NCBI GenBank assembly: GCA_903822005.1 | Contig: CAIJNL010000045.1 | Coordinates: forward strand, 1-64,000 | Origin: an uncultured Nitrospiraceae bacterium | GTDB lineage: Bacteria; Nitrospirota; Thermodesulfovibrionia; Thermodesulfovibrionales; Dissulfurispiraceae | DNA length: 64,000 bases | Direction of reading: 5' to 3' | Shown here: in pieces, positions 2,885 through 10,214 of the stretch | Numbering within the stretch: position 1 is the stretch's first letter | How the letters are laid out: every line of letters begins with the position of its first letter | Notes under the pieces: generated by a model | What the model saw: the letters and a program-made list of their open reading frames with translations, nothing else | Told to the model about the DNA's origin: nothing | Databases searched by the model: none | Program-made: the position numbers and the translations under genes

Positions 2885-4179
2885 AACAGCCTCCCTGTAT
2901 CTTCGGGCTTCCTGAATTCAGCAGCGAGATAGGCGCTCGATTTCGGGGCCTGATCGACTTCTTCAGGGGAATCTACTTCTTTGGCGCTCGAAATGCCTAA
3001 ATCCCTGAACTTCCTGATTGAAGGGATCAGCCTTGTCTCCATCGAACGCACGCCGTCATTGTATGAGCCTACGGCCTTGCGGAGAGAATCACCGGTCTTC
3101 GCAAAATGTTCAATGACGATCGCAAACCTTTCATAAAGGTCTTTGCCGAGGCGGTTGACCTCCTGCGCGCTCTTGGTGACCTGCTCCTGCTGCCAGCCAT
3201 AGGCCACGGCCTTGAGCAGGGCAATAAAGGTGGTCGGGGTGGCCAGCACTACCTTTTTCAGGCTGCCGTCCTCAATGAGCCGGGGATCATGCTCAAGTGC
3301 GGCGCTGAAAAAAGATTCACCCGGCAGGTACATAACTACCAGCTCGGGCGACTGAGGGAACTGGTCCCAGTATGCCTTGGAGCTGAGAGAATTCATATGG
3401 TTTCTTATCTGCGCTATATAGTTGACAATGCCGCGCTTCCTCTCTTCCTCGGAGCCTGCCGACAGCGCGTTAAGATAGGCATCAACCGGCGCCTTGGCAT
3501 CAACAACAATCTCCCGTCCGTTCGGCAGACGCACTATCATGTCGGGCCGCAGTCTGCCGGCCTCTGCAGATACCGACTCCTGTTCATAGAAATCGCAATA
3601 GGCGGTCATCCCTGCGAGCTCGGCAACACGCTTCAGCCCGAGTTCACCCCACGATCCGCTCACTTTAGGCCTGCGCAGGGCCGTCACCAGGTTATGCGTC
3701 TCCTGCTGAAGCCTGTCCTGCATTCCGGAGAGACTGCGGATTTGCTCGGAAAGACTGCCGTGGGACTTATGCCTGTTGTCCTCCATCTCTTTGATCTGAA
3801 GCTCATAACGTCTCAGCATCTCCTGCAGCGGCTGTATTGTAGCGTCGATGGACGTCTGGTGCTTGCCGAGTTTGCCCTCTGTCTCGACAACAACCCTGCC
3901 CAGATGTTCGGACGCGAGGCGCAGGAAATCTTCGCTGCTGCTCTTGAGCGCCGCAGACGAAAGCGCGTTAAAGGTGTCCGTCATTTCGGTCTTAAGTGCT
4001 GCCGAGCGGGACCTCTCATCATCCCTTTGCTGTTCCGCTGCCCCGGCCCTGGCTTCAAGTATTGCCTGTGCGGCCTTGAAGCGCGAGCCCACTATAATCC
4101 AGACCAGGAAAGCCCCGACCGCAAAACCGGCAAGCGCAGCCGCAATAATAAATGCTGTTTCTGTCATTGCGCGCTCCAT
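2881..4179 (-). CDS. rmuC: DNA recombination protein RmuC
   Basis: A 432-residue protein with one N-terminal membrane helix (about residues 8-30), a long coiled coil (about 35-150) and a C-terminal nuclease-like domain carrying VVDAKAPVDAYLNAL. This is the standard RmuC layout. RmuC limits recombination at inverted repeats, and its domain belongs to the PD-(D/E)XK superfamily, where the Asp and the Lys of DAK are likely catalytic. The N-terminal start (MERAMTETAF) overlaps the preceding GroES-like gene by 16 bp; starting at the second Met would shorten this to 4 bp. Confidence 0.9.
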   Translation of the reverse strand: MERAMTETAFIIAAALAGFAVGAFLVWIIVGSRFKAAQAILEARAGAAEQQRDDERSRSAALKTEMTDTFNALSSAALKSSSEDFLRLASEHLGRVVVETEGKLGKHQTSIDATIQPLQEMLRRYELQIKEMEDNRHKSHGSLSEQIRSLSGMQDRLQQETHNLVTALRRPKVSGSWGELGLKRVAELAGMTAYCDFYEQESVSAEAGRLRPDMIVRLPNGREIVVDAKAPVDAYLNALSAGSEEERKRGIVNYIAQIRNHMNSLSSKAYWDQFPQSPELVVMYLPGESFFSAALEHDPRLIEDGSLKKVVLATPTTFIALLKAVAYGWQQEQVTKSAQEVNRLGKDLYERFAIVIEHFAKTGDSLRKAVGSYNDGVRSMETRLIPSIRKFRDLGISSAKEVDSPEEVDQAPKSSAYLAAEFRKPEDTGRLL

Positions 4180-4615: not shown

Positions 4616-4897
4616 TCAGCAATAACGCCAGCCCTCGACTATGAGCCTTTTGAATCCGAGGAAGGACGACACCTCAATGCTGAGTTCAATCCCCGCAATG
4701 ACCCTGGGCAGATAAACCATTATACCGTCCATATCTACAACGATGTAGGCATCAAGATTTGGTGGAGGACCTATCCGGACAGTCGGGCTTTCCTGAAAGT
4801 CAAAACAGCAGGTTGCTATGGCCTTGGGCAGGTCCAGGAAGACCGTGTTGCCCTGCTTTCTTATGATTTCAGCCGCCTCAGGAGATACGCTAATCAT
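4616..4897 (-). CDS. Small CC-motif protein (CC/Se-motif-like)
   Basis: A 93-residue protein starting MISVSPEAAEIIRKQGNTV with an adjacent Cys pair in AIATCCFDF (about residues 29-30) and ending in Cys. The size, N-terminal pattern and CC pair resemble the small proteins annotated as CC/Se motif family, in which some members carry selenocysteine at the second position. Both positions are ordinary Cys here. No function is known. It lies upstream of the GroES-like gene and divergent from truA. Confidence 0.5.
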   Translation of the reverse strand: MISVSPEAAEIIRKQGNTVFLDLPKAIATCCFDFQESPTVRIGPPPNLDAYIVVDMDGIMVYLPRVIAGIELSIEVSSFLGFKRLIVEGWRYC

Positions 4898-5853: not shown

Positions 5854-6120
5854 TCAGTTTTTCAAATTGCGATAGAAATTCTCATGTGGGCCAAGCGCAC
5901 GCAAAGTGAGAATTTCCTTATCATATTCATAGGCCAGTAAAAACAATTGATTTAAAACCTGGAATTTGTAAACTCTGATACCTGCCAAATCATCTTTTTT
6001 TGCTTCGCCTTCCAATGGGTCATTAATAATTTTCTTTATAGCAGTGTTTACTGCATCAAGTTCGTTGTCATGAAGCCGCTTGTACGCGCGTTTGAATTCA
6101 CCCTTTTGCGATATAATCAT
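5854..6120 (-). CDS. RelE/ParE-superfamily toxin
   Basis: An 88-residue basic protein. The start EFKRAYKRLHDNELDAVNTAIKKI, the central LAGIRVYKFQVLNQLFLLAYEYD and the closing LRALGPHENFYRNLKN match the RelE-like fold, with the usual His-Glu-Asn-Phe-Tyr end. RelE-type toxins cleave mRNA on the ribosome; ParE types inhibit gyrase, and sequence alone does not separate them here, although the His/Tyr end favours RelE. The start overlaps the antitoxin stop by 4 bp. Confidence 0.85.
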   Translation of the reverse strand: MIISQKGEFKRAYKRLHDNELDAVNTAIKKIINDPLEGEAKKDDLAGIRVYKFQVLNQLFLLAYEYDKEILTLRALGPHENFYRNLKN

Positions 6121-6329
6121 TTACTGCGAAATTCAAACGGCTCGGAAGATTGCCCCTCTGAAGCCAGGATAGACTTAATAAACTCAATTGGCAGATCAGG
6201 GTTGTCCAAAGCGGCCTTGCCAATTTTAGCCCAATATTGAACTTGCAGGGGTGCAGTCCGGGATTCTGCCCTTGCGGTAGTTTCAGCCTGCTTATAAAGC
6301 TTATCATCAATTCTAATAGCTACACTCAT
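6117..6329 (-). CDS. ParD-like antitoxin
   Basis: A 70-residue protein with an N-terminal ribbon-helix-helix-like segment (SVAIRIDDKLYKQAETTARAE) and a variable C-terminal tail for toxin binding. The RTAPLQVQYWAKIGKAALDNPDLP segment is typical of small ParD-like antitoxins. It precedes and overlaps the toxin by 4 bp, as in most type II toxin-antitoxin operons. A perfect 17-bp inverted repeat just upstream is the likely autoregulatory operator. Confidence 0.8.
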   Translation of the reverse strand: MSVAIRIDDKLYKQAETTARAESRTAPLQVQYWAKIGKAALDNPDLPIEFIKSILASEGQSSEPFEFRSK

Positions 6330-6527: not shown

Positions 6528-6556
6528 CAAAAAAACCGCCGGCATCTGACCGGCGG
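6528..6556 (-). terminator. Rho-independent terminator of the rpsB-frr-dksA-like operon
   Basis: On the minus strand, a 7-bp GC-only stem (CCGCCGG/CCGGCGG, 6536-6542 with 6550-6556) and a 7-nt loop are followed by seven T residues. It lies 28 bp after the stop of the DksA-like gene. Confidence 0.85.
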
Positions 6557-6583: not shown

Positions 6584-7240
6584 TTATAAAGTCCCGCTGT
6601 CCCTCTCCACTTTTTCCCTCATCTCGCGTTCCTCCTGGCAATCCCTGCACGCGATGGCAAAAGGCATGATCATAAGCCGCTCAACGCTGATCTCGTCTCC
6701 GCACTCATCACATGTGCCGTAGGTCCCTTCATCAAACTTTCTCAGGGCAATATCTATCTTCTGGAGCGTTTCCCTGTGGGTGCTCAGCTGTTTGAGATTG
6801 ATGTCCTCGGCAAGGTCGACCACCGAAAGATCTCCCTCATCGAGCACGGTCTCCACAAGCTGTCTTTTTTCACCTGCAACATACTTTTTGATCTCGGTCT
6901 GGCTCTCTTTTATGATCTCCTGCCTCTTTTGTAAAAGGAGCTTTCTCAAACGTTCGTTGCGTTCCGTACCCGGTTCCTGTTCAGCCTTGCTCTTTTCTTT
7001 TGTCGTCACTGCCTTTATCGGTGCCTTCGCTTTCGTAATTGATTTCGCTTTCGCCACAGGCGCAGCTTTTGGTTTAGCTTTGAGCTTGTTTGCGGCCGCG
7101 GCCCTCGGTTTCACCCTGGGGGCGACCTTTGGTTTTGCCTTCAAAACAGTCTTGGTCTTGACAGCAGGCTTTGCTTTCAGTCCGGACTTTTTCTGCAATC
7201 TGGTCTTTGGTTTAGTCTTTTTCTGAACCTTGCCGGCCAT
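6584..7240 (-). CDS. TraR/DksA-family zinc-finger protein with a long histone-H1-like Lys/Ala/Pro tail
   Basis: A 218-residue protein in two parts. Residues 1-100 are low-complexity Lys/Ala/Pro repeats (KAKP, KAKA, KPK), like histone H1 or AlgP tails. Residues 105-215 form a DksA-like coiled coil followed by a four-Cys zinc finger (CDEC about residue 176 and CRDC about 197). DksA-type proteins bind the RNA polymerase secondary channel and tune transcription. The tail should bind nucleic acid or acidic surfaces, but its role is unknown. It lies 54 bp behind a 46-residue ORF downstream of frr, in what looks like one operon with ribosomal genes. Confidence 0.85.
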   Translation of the reverse strand: MAGKVQKKTKPKTRLQKKSGLKAKPAVKTKTVLKAKPKVAPRVKPRAAAANKLKAKPKAAPVAKAKSITKAKAPIKAVTTKEKSKAEQEPGTERNERLRKLLLQKRQEIIKESQTEIKKYVAGEKRQLVETVLDEGDLSVVDLAEDINLKQLSTHRETLQKIDIALRKFDEGTYGTCDECGDEISVERLMIMPFAIACRDCQEEREMREKVERDSGTL

Positions 7241-7294
7241 ATATTCCCTCCGGGTAAAAAGGCTGCCTGTTTATCGCCATTATTGCGGCAGTCC

Positions 7295-7435
7295 TTATTT
7301 ATCTGAATCTGCGGTTTCCTCTTTATATACTTCCGTAATGTTCCTGACCCTGATGCCGGCCTGTTCGAGGGCTTTCTGCACCTCGGAGGGCTTGGCGTCA
7401 ACCACCTTGAGAATATAATTCAGATTGACCGCCAT
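7295..7435 (-). CDS. 46-residue protein of unknown function directly after frr
   Basis: The ATG at 7435 lies 1 bp after the frr stop and has a good ribosome site (GGAGG, 6 bp upstream, inside the frr end). The product begins MAVNLNYILKVVDAKPSEVQ and ends ETADSDK. It is charged and predicted helical, with no membrane segment. The segment VDAKPSEVQKALEQAGIRV looks like a small helical UBA-like or winged module, but I cannot assign a family. Position and spacing suggest co-translation with frr. Confidence 0.6.
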   Translation of the reverse strand: MAVNLNYILKVVDAKPSEVQKALEQAGIRVRNITEVYKEETADSDK

Positions 7436-7436
7436 A

Positions 7437-7991
7437 CTAGACCTCCATTATCTCCTTCTCTTTATGCTGAAGCACCTCTTCAACCTTCTCGATATAAGAG
7501 TCCGTCACCTTCTGTATCTCTTCATGCAGCCTCTTCACATCATCCTCGCTCATGTGCTGCTCTTTTTCTTTTTTCTTCAGTTCTTCCAGTATGTCGCGGC
7601 GGATGTTCCTCACCGCCACACGGCCCTCTTCCGAACGTTTCTTGACGACCTTGACGAGTTGCACCCTTCTCTCTTCCGTGAGATGAGGAATGTTGATCCT
7701 TATCATCTTGCCGTCATTGCCCGGCGTGAGACCGAGGTCGGACTTGAGGATCGCCTTTTCAATCTCCGAAATAATCTTGGGGTCCCATGGCTGAATCGTT
7801 ATCTGCCTGCTCTCAGGGATCCCGAGCGTCGCAACCTGGCTGAGCTCCGTAGGCGCGCCATAGTAGTCAACCCTTATCCCGTCAAGAAGACTCAGGGAAG
7901 CCCTCCCTGTCCTGACAGATCCGAAGTCTTTTTTCAGCGACTCAATAGCCGAGTTCATCCTGTCCATCGCCTTTTTTTTAAGTTCGTTCAT
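7437..7991 (-). CDS. frr: Ribosome recycling factor
   Basis: A 184-residue protein of normal family length. It has the conserved FGSVRTGRASLSLLDGIRVDYYGAP region and PHLTEERRVQLVK near the middle, and the helical C-terminus. It splits post-termination ribosomes together with EF-G. It is the fourth gene of rpsB-tsf-pyrH-frr, an order conserved across many bacteria. Confidence 0.98.
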   Translation of the reverse strand: MNELKKKAMDRMNSAIESLKKDFGSVRTGRASLSLLDGIRVDYYGAPTELSQVATLGIPESRQITIQPWDPKIISEIEKAILKSDLGLTPGNDGKMIRINIPHLTEERRVQLVKVVKKRSEEGRVAVRNIRRDILEELKKKEKEQHMSEDDVKRLHEEIQKVTDSYIEKVEEVLQHKEKEIMEV

Positions 7992-8044: not shown

Positions 8045-8794
8045 TCAGTTTTGGGCCTTTACTACAGTTGTGCCTATCTTCTGCCCCAGCAGAATATTCT
8101 TAATATTATCTGTTTTTTTCATGTCAAAAACAACTATCGGCAGATTGTTGTCCATGCACAGCGATATGGCTGTCGAATCCATGACCCTGAGATTCTGTTT
8201 TATCACATCAATATAGGAGATTACATCATACTTCTTTGCATCAGGATGCGTGGCCGGATCAGCGGTATAAACACCATCTACCTTGGTGCCCTTCATAATC
8301 ACGTCAGCGCCAATTTCCATTGCCCTGAGCGCGGCAGCGGTATCAGTTGTAAAGTAAGGATTGCCGGTGCCGGCCGCGAATATCACTATCCTGCCCTTTT
8401 CGAGATGGCGCATGGCCTTTCGCCTTATGTACGACTCGGCCAGTTCCCGCATCTCGATAGCGGACTGCACCCTTGTCTGGAGTCCGACATTCTCAAGCGC
8501 GTTCTGCAGGGCCAGAGAGTTTATGACAGTGGCCAGCATGCCCATGTAATCAGCAGAGGCCCGCTCCATGCCCTGCAATGAGGCTTCGACACCACGGAAT
8601 ATATTGCCGCCGCCAATTACTACGGCAACCTGCACCCCCATCTCAAAGACTTTTTTGATCTCGTCTGCCATGAAACGGACAGTGGCGGGGTCCAGACCGT
8701 AGGTCTTGTCTCCCATAAGCGCCTCTCCGCTCAGTTTCAGCAGTATCCTCTTATAGACAAGCTTTTGAGCTTCGTGCTTCTCAATGGGAGACAT
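8045..8794 (-). CDS. pyrH: Uridylate kinase (UMP kinase)
   Basis: A 249-residue amino-acid-kinase-fold protein with [15 protein letters not shown] at the start, [11 protein letters not shown] (about residues 60-70) and the [21 protein letters not shown] region. It phosphorylates UMP to UDP in pyrimidine nucleotide synthesis. The start is about 10 residues longer than in E. coli PyrH; a later start cannot be excluded. Confidence 0.97.
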
Positions 8795-8814: not shown

Positions 8815-9429
8815 CTAGCAGGCTTCGACTTTTGCCAACCCCTCACCCAGCTGATAGCGGGTGAACCTTCTTATAACTATATTTTCGCCGACCTTGGCTA
8901 TCGTTTCGGTAAGCAGGTCTTTTATCTTCTTCTTCCCCTCGGGGTCCTTTACAAAGACCTGATCGAGCAGGCACATATCACTGAAGAACTTGTCGAGCTT
9001 GCCTTCCACGATCTTATCGACAACCTGCGGGGGCTTGTTTGTGACCTGCGCCTTGTAAATCTCTTTTTCCCTTTCCAGAGTGTCGGCAGGGACCTCTTCC
9101 CTGGTGACATATTGCGGATTGGCGGCGGCTATATGCATGGCCACATCTTTTACCAGGCCCCTGAAGTCATCTGTCTTTGCTACAAAATCGGTCTCGCAGT
9201 TTATCTCGACCATAACACCGATTTTATCCATATGTATATACGAGGCCACGAGTCCCTGGGAAGCCGTGCGGCCCGATTTCTTGGCAGCCGATGCCAGGCC
9301 CTTCTGCCTGAGCACATCTATGGCTTTTTCCATATCGCCGTTACATTCGGAAAGTGCCCGTTTGCAGTCCATAAGACCTGCGCCGGTCTTTTCCCTCAGT
9401 TCCTTTACAACATCAGCGCTTACTGTCAT
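8815..9429 (-). CDS. tsf: Elongation factor Ts
   Basis: A 204-residue protein with the N-terminal signature [18 protein letters not shown] and [16 protein letters not shown]. It is the short form, similar in length to the Thermus protein and about 80 residues shorter than E. coli EF-Ts. It exchanges GDP for GTP on EF-Tu. The start codon overlaps the rpsB stop region by 1 bp. Confidence 0.97.
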
Positions 9430-10214
9430 TATTTACTCTCCTCCTGAACTCCTGCTGCAGCTTCTTTCTCGTCACGCGCGGCCTTTTCTGCAATTGCGGC
9501 CTTTTCCGAGACCTCTTCTATCTTCTTGGCAAGAGCACCCTTGCCCTCGGTTATTGCCGAAGCCATCTTTGAAGAAACAAGCTTGATGGCCCTTATTGCA
9601 TCATCGTTGCCCGGTATGACATAGTCCGCATCTTCAGGGTCACAATTCGTATCAACAATCGCCACGATTGGGATAGAAAGCCGCTTGGCTTCCTGTACCG
9701 CTATCTTTTCCTTCCGCGGGTCTATGATGAATATCGCGCCAGGGACGCCTTTCATGTCTTTTATACCGCAGAGGTTCTTTTCGAGTTTCTCCCTCTCTTT
9801 CTCGAGCTGGGAGACTTCCTTCTTGGTCAGCACGTTGTATGTGCCGTCCTCTTTCATGGTCTCAATCTTCTTGAGCCTTTCGATACTCTTTTTAACGGTG
9901 GTGAAGTTTGTGAGCATTCCTCCGAGCCATCTGCTCGTTACATAATATGCACCGGCCTTTTTGGCCTCTTCGGTCACAGCGTCCTGGGCCTGCTTCTTGG
10001 TCCCGACGAAAAGCACGTTCGCGCCGGCTGCAGACAGGTTCTTCAGAAAGTTGTAAGCCTCTTCTACACCCTTCAATGTCTTCTGAAGATCGACTATGTG
10101 AATACCATTACGTTCGCCGAAGATAAATTTCTTCATCTTCGGGTTCCACCTTTTCACCTGGTGCCCGAAATGCGCGCCTGACTCGAGCAACTCCTTCATG
10201 GTTACAACACTCAT
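9429..10214 (-). CDS. rpsB: 30S ribosomal protein S2
   Basis: A 261-residue protein beginning [20 protein letters not shown] with the conserved [15 protein letters not shown] and [21 protein letters not shown] segments. It is a small-subunit ribosomal protein and the first gene of the operon. The C-terminal 30 residues are a Lys/Ala/Glu-rich extension that varies in this family. Confidence 0.98.

Follow-up and report, generated by a model that had tools for sequence, protein, structure and literature searches.

Which products are encoded at the end of the rpsB-tsf-pyrH-frr row of a Nitrospirota genome, and do they act together? The window, the whole stretch of 64,000 nucleotides that was analysed, carries on its minus strand rpsB (9429..10214), tsf (8815..9429), pyrH (8045..8794) and frr (7437..7991), the gene of the ribosome recycling factor. 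An ORF of 46 codons (7295..7435) and a gene of the DksA/TraR family (6584..7240) follow on the same strand. The first three genes were named by eye from their translations, frr from the ORF list and family searches, and the DksA/TraR-family gene from family searches and a structure model. An earlier note on this DNA had joined the last two genes to the translation operon and proposed a link between nucleoid binding, transcription control and growth rate. Such a link is possible, though putative. Our preferred reading, to which we give a probability of about one half, is that two separate things share the end of the row: a self-assembling small protein and a DksA2-like paralogue with a tail for polyanions.

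The small gene behind frr

The small ORF reported in the earlier note is real (7435-7295, minus strand) and starts one base past the frr stop codon. A Shine-Dalgarno-like GGAGGT (7441..7446, minus strand), read from the sequence, lies inside the final frr codons. The same arrangement is visible in most frr-linked homologous loci. A GGAGGG is located ahead of the DksA-like start (7251-7246, minus strand). A terminator-like hairpin with a T7 run was detected downstream of the DksA-like gene by a hairpin scan (6536..6556, minus strand); the region holds seven such sites versus 5.0 in shuffles, a count not above chance. Just past this operon terminator lies a toxin-antitoxin pair (5854-6329, minus strand), the toxin ParE-like (E 6.3e-31) and the antitoxin ParD-like (E 2.3e-16). 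A 93-residue ORF (4619-4897, minus strand) matched nothing in Pfam with an E-value of 0.01 or below.

A search with the single protein matched the small ORF in frame in 54 of 60 genomes, its own included, and the weakest best match had an E-value of 3.4e-7. With a 22-member alignment, 189 of 395 genomes of the phylum matched with E-values of 0.01 or below, and 182 of these reached E 1e-11 or better. The other seven matches (E 0.004-0.009) were left out: G066 is GlnB, G161 lies inside a LamB/YcsF-like protein (by eye), G039, G051, G130 and G127 are weak matches in long frames only, and G193 was dropped without re-examination. Scanning named genome contigs yielded 162 confirmed relatives. The best 80 are nearly all titled Nitrospirae, Nitrospirota or Thermodesulfovibrio and served as the named loci, a choice biased to close relatives. 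The record of locus L088, titled Deltaproteobacteria, prompted a search around the distant carrier G401, in which 9 of 148 genomes matched at E up to 1e-4, the L088 genome included. From this title and the low match rate, we infer that the G401 group lies outside the Nitrospirota. Phage and plasmid records gave no match. Whole Nitrospirota lineages are without the small protein; all six genomes examined of one of them, g25, gave no convincing match. The small protein is therefore dispensable.

Selection was measured on a 34-codon core, pooled from 16 close pairs (start codons picked by script). Synonymous change prevails in frame (pS 0.502, pN 0.021, pN/pS 0.042), versus a pN/pS of 3.2 for the same nucleotides in two shifted frames. 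Third codon positions are the most variable (0.462 vs 0.148 and 0.096). The core reads NYILKVxDAKxxDIQKALxxAGIKVxSIxEVYKEE, and K10, D13, A14, K21, A22, L23 and G27 are invariant in a 60-sequence alignment. In-frame conservation and the excess of synonymous change, the check asked for in the earlier note, thus speak for a gene. Judged by its substitution pattern, the small ORF is a real, translated gene under strong amino-acid-level selection with a 46-residue product. Neither the window protein nor the 60 members fall into a family of Pfam, NCBIfam or PHROGs. The small protein represents a conserved family that is undescribed as far as these libraries show. Neither the small protein nor its gene order was found described in the open-licence PubMed Central literature (titles and abstract starts).

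The gene neighbourhood was compared across the best 80 of the 162 relatives. In 65 of these 80 loci, frr is located upstream of the small ORF on the same strand; the two are -4 to +6 bases apart in 53 and 10 to 179 bases apart in 12. A DksA-like gene lies downstream in 60 of the 65. Fifteen loci are without frr upstream; the contig of L038 starts too near the gene to judge, and 14 remain. A dksA gene adjoins the small ORF in one of them, L092 (1 of 14), and the contig of L076, also among the 14, ends too soon downstream to judge. Elsewhere, in these loci and in more distant genomes, the neighbours are of other kinds, named by eye save where a family search was made. L089 and L102 carry a row of FtsK-, LolA- and deacetylase-like genes before a NusG-like gene, L097 and L099 ATP-synthase genes, L213 a gltX-like gene, and L260 and L261 radical-SAM-like and aminopeptidase-like genes. 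For L203 to L205, part of the neighbourhood was covered. Close behind the frr-unlinked small gene, L092, L097 and L099 encode a protein of 83-84 residues (about 3156-3818), in L092 with dksA between. The scanned L097 copy weakly resembles, below the cut-offs, the C-terminal domain of U32 peptidases and EF-Tu domain 2.

The converse arrangement occurs as well. Among 27 frr loci from genomes picked mostly for lacking the small ORF, 11 place dksA immediately after frr and lack the small ORF. These 11 include all six genomes of genus g25, which encode a tail-less DksA-like protein of 129-130 residues that starts 0 to 5 bases past frr. Since frr-dksA pairs lacking the small ORF and small ORFs lacking dksA both occur, the two features can be separated. 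A functional link is therefore not carried by gene order outside the clade.

The small ORF might be a leader that tunes dksA translation by coupling, with a product that has no function of its own. A ribosome-binding site overlapping the frr end and the place ahead of dksA in most frr-linked loci would suit such a role, but it was rejected because selection acts on the amino acids, and the small ORF also stands beside unrelated genes. We hold it to be very improbable. The earlier note implied a different role, in which the small protein and the tailed DksA-like protein act together and, from the translation operon, couple nucleoid binding with transcription and growth rate. The tight order frr, small ORF, dksA argues for joint action, as does L092, which keeps dksA after the small ORF away from frr. 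Against it stand the single such case among the 14 frr-unlinked loci, the 11 frr-dksA pairs without the small ORF, and the highly variable length of the tail. Joint action is improbable. What holds of the claimed pairing is the close position behind frr on one strand; the two genes are not tied to each other. The small protein is not a dedicated DksA partner, because its gene adjoins frr (and dksA) in only part of the phylum and has unrelated neighbours elsewhere.

Fold and relatives of the small protein

The apolar pattern of the small protein suggests a strand-helix-strand (beta-alpha-beta) arrangement. An AlphaFold2 model from 60 sequences (pLDDT 74, pTM 0.46) has a helix at residues 16-25 and no assigned strand. 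Foldseek found no match to this model in the PDB. Two profiles of the small protein, compared with solved structures, returned nothing significant (best E 0.07 and 0.1). The 60 members have weak family hits, spread over unrelated folds, e.g. EF-hand_2 in 25, SecD-TM1 in 19 and PASTA in 12 of the 60. The best E-values of single members were reached with an ACT domain family (0.0022, two members), the ComEA repeat (0.0013, three members) and an unnamed PHROG (0.0041). PASTA, EF-hand, L11, the Rok winged helix and the exonuclease VII small subunit were set aside as candidates, their hits being weak, scattered and below the cut-offs for the window protein. The ribosomal protein uL23 was rejected as well: Pseudomonas-type L23 chains matched weakly (E 0.71-0.82), and the uL23 profile score of 14.1 was reached by 5 of 100 shuffles.

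The best resemblance found, suggestive only, is to the N-terminal half of P-II. In a profile-profile comparison, 82 members were aligned with 26 GlnB sequences of the same order (26 of 30 loci parsed), giving a score of 25.9 over 24 columns, a probability of 54 percent and an uncorrected P of 1.3e-4. P-II had been chosen since it had already surfaced in the searches. None of 100 and none of 60 column shuffles reached this score. Control profiles scored within their own shuffles (uL23 as above, RRF 13.5, DksA-like family 10.1). In the genomes G321, G333, G253 and G066, the second hit of the profile built from the family is a GlnB N-terminus in matching register, and a hit in G038 falls within a GlnB gene.

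These matches raise the reading that the small protein is a half-domain of P-II (or ACT), devoid of T-loop and nucleotide site, which would dimerise to a ferredoxin-like domain or cap P-II-type proteins. The score, its shuffles and controls and the GlnB N-termini in register favour it, but the probability of 54 percent over so few columns does not, and a narrower alignment of 60 rows compared weakly with GlnB (score 13.0, P 0.015). The P-II family (PF00543) gave no hit for the window protein and one among the 60 members (E 0.035); a family-profile match, T-loop, nucleotide site and second half, by which P-II membership was judged, are all missing from the small protein. Other helix-turn-strand proteins (L192) and long unrelated frames are likewise among the whole-genome profile hits, and the model has no strands. 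We regard this reading as unlikely. A narrower version, a stand-alone ferredoxin-like half-domain of the P-II/ACT kind that would be complete only when paired with its own copy or with a P-II/ACT protein, is doubtful. With a helix only in the model, no Foldseek match and rival profile hits, the half-domain is held as a lead and not as a result. If it were true, the half-domain would serve as a minimal sensor or would naturally modulate nitrogen or amino-acid signalling, expressed in the clade with the translation apparatus. Truncated P-II/ACT small proteins and half ferredoxin-like folds were not found described in open-licence PubMed Central titles and abstract starts.

The DksA-like protein and its lysine-rich tail

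The DksA/TraR-family gene encodes 218 residues. Its zinc-finger domain matches zf-dskA_traR (PF01258) with 48.5 bits (cut-off 24.9), and the four cysteines typical of the superfamily are in place (C177, C180, C198 and C201; 6638..6712, minus strand). The DksA equivalog model TIGR02420 gives 65 bits, below its cut-off of 115.5. Two further family members are present in the genome, at L244 (125.1 bits, a canonical DksA that passes the cut-off) and at L246 (57.2 bits). By these scores the DksA-like protein is a paralogue, with the canonical DksA encoded elsewhere in the genome.

The structure model (overall pLDDT 71, pTM 0.48) has a coiled coil of residues 91-133 and 140-171, an acidic hairpin tip DEGDLS at residues 134-139 (6824..6841, minus strand) and a zinc-finger end. 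Residues 1-90 (6971..7240, minus strand) are predicted without secondary structure, with block pLDDT values of 50-57. Foldseek ranks 1-8 are all DksA-family chains; first comes DksA2 of Pseudomonas aeruginosa (4ijj, E 6.3e-6, target TM 0.74), next the DksA of Escherichia coli, free or bound to RNA polymerase (1tjl, 5vsw, 7khi). Conservation was followed in 63 homologues, the window protein and 62 from the best 80 of the 162 named loci. The DxxD tip was found by pattern in 62 of them and by eye in the last (L081, DTGDWS). Four cysteines form the zinc site in 53, Cys-Cys-Cys-Asp in nine, and one is truncated. The last zinc-finger cysteine is replaced by aspartate in L031, L032, L033, L037, L040, L047, L051, L098 and L101, a change that may alter metal binding or redox response. 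The DxxDxA motif of DksA acts in the secondary channel of RNA polymerase. Coiled-coil tip and zinc finger of such a secondary-channel factor are kept in the sequence and model of the DksA-like protein, and polymerase binding is most likely. The putative polymerase-binding module of the earlier note is retained in this form, as a paralogue below the equivalog cut-off.

The tail in the window consists of about 90 Lys/Pro/Ala-rich residues (92 by script measure) with a net charge of +27. Its composition, predicted disorder and charge are those of histone-H1-like or AlgP-type tails. The lysine-rich tail claimed before was thereby found, with a length of about 90 instead of about 100 residues of KAKP-type repeats and at the N-terminus. 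Among the same 63 homologues (62 of them from the best 80 of 162), tail length ranges from 3 to 111 residues with a median of 63; at least 40 residues occur in 46, 25-39 in four and 0 to 24 in 13. Tail starts were set by script at the first Met of the open frame, and some lengths are overestimates, e.g. L033. The only relative of the same genus in the samples (L041) has 15 residues versus 92 in the window. The tail is thus real and frequent in relatives, but it is a variable attachment and not a fixed module. Since 13 of the 63 homologues are almost tail-less, the core function does not require a tail.

Pooled over the 63 homologues, the tails contain 28.8 percent K, 13.5 percent A and 8.9 percent P, and 48 of them carry a net charge of at least +5. 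Across six close pairs with long tails, pN/pS was 0.25-0.52 for the tail versus 0.05-0.18 for the domain. Two short-tailed pairs gave no such contrast (tail vs domain 0.17 vs 0.13 and 0.00 vs 0.06). The six long-tailed pairs indicate that the tail is translated and constrained mostly in kind; the constraint is relaxed but real and mainly on composition. A neutral low-complexity expansion with no role would account for the wide range of lengths and the common indels. Such an expansion is unlikely, as the lysine-rich composition and positive charge are kept while the sequence drifts, pN/pS stays below 1 in the six pairs, and similar tails occur in another group. There, in the G401 group (28 of 30 loci parsed), lysine-rich N-terminal tails were read on 2 of 28 DksA-family proteins, L302 and L307, and the tailed design therefore recurs. 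These tails have about 57 and 112 residues, respectively, that of L307 with VKGAKKAxRVQKRP-like repeats. A tailed DksA was not found described in open-licence PubMed Central titles and abstract starts.

Proposed roles and comparison with known systems

In the preferred reading of two separate products, the small protein most likely self-assembles, at least to a dimer, in which every copy would supply one half of a small domain of sheet and helix. The assembly would work as a small adaptor or a ligand-sensing subunit. In this clade it would be made together with translation factors because its gene is placed behind frr, and not because it serves DksA. The DksA2-like paralogue most likely works in the secondary channel of RNA polymerase via its coiled-coil tip. 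Its disordered polycationic N-terminal tail would contact polyanions non-specifically, i.e. DNA, RNA or polyphosphate. These contacts may raise the local concentration of the protein near the transcribing polymerase.

The small protein is found across much of the phylum and also outside it, is selected as strongly as core genes are, and is easily missed in annotation. Should the beta-alpha-beta arrangement be confirmed, the small protein would be a natural case for testing how ferredoxin-like domains may arise from half-domains. The tailed DksA-like proteins unite a polymerase-channel factor and a histone-H1-like tail in one chain. The natural series of tail lengths among the 63 homologues lends itself directly to testing how polyanion-binding tails affect transcription factors.

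Three known systems come close to the two products. The small-protein stretch DAKxxDIxKALxxAGIxVxSIxEV aligns with PFKLDDVKxALxxAGIxGMTVxEV in the N-terminal half of GlnB. The small protein differs from P-II by lacking the T-loop, the second half and the nucleotide-site/GFGRQ motif; in the alignments it ends about where the P-II T-loop would begin. The window DksA-like protein resembles DksA2 and the DksA of E. coli in its predicted coiled-coil and zinc-finger-type fold, and its tip DEGDLS aligns with DEADLA of P. aeruginosa DksA2. Relative to the DxxDxA of DksA, the tip has Ser for Ala, and relative to both proteins, about 90 lysine-rich residues are added at the N-terminus. The tailed protein is a DksA2-type variant. 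AlgP and PhaF of Pseudomonas possess a disordered Lys/Pro/Ala-rich (KPAA) tail like that of the window protein. According to the AlgP study, DNA binding is seen with fragments of the AlgP tail and with KPAA peptides, and the folded part of AlgP and PhaF is an alpha-helical N-terminal domain, which is unrelated to DksA (PMC9239181). The tail is C-terminal in AlgP and PhaF, whereas it is N-terminal in the DksA-like protein of the window.
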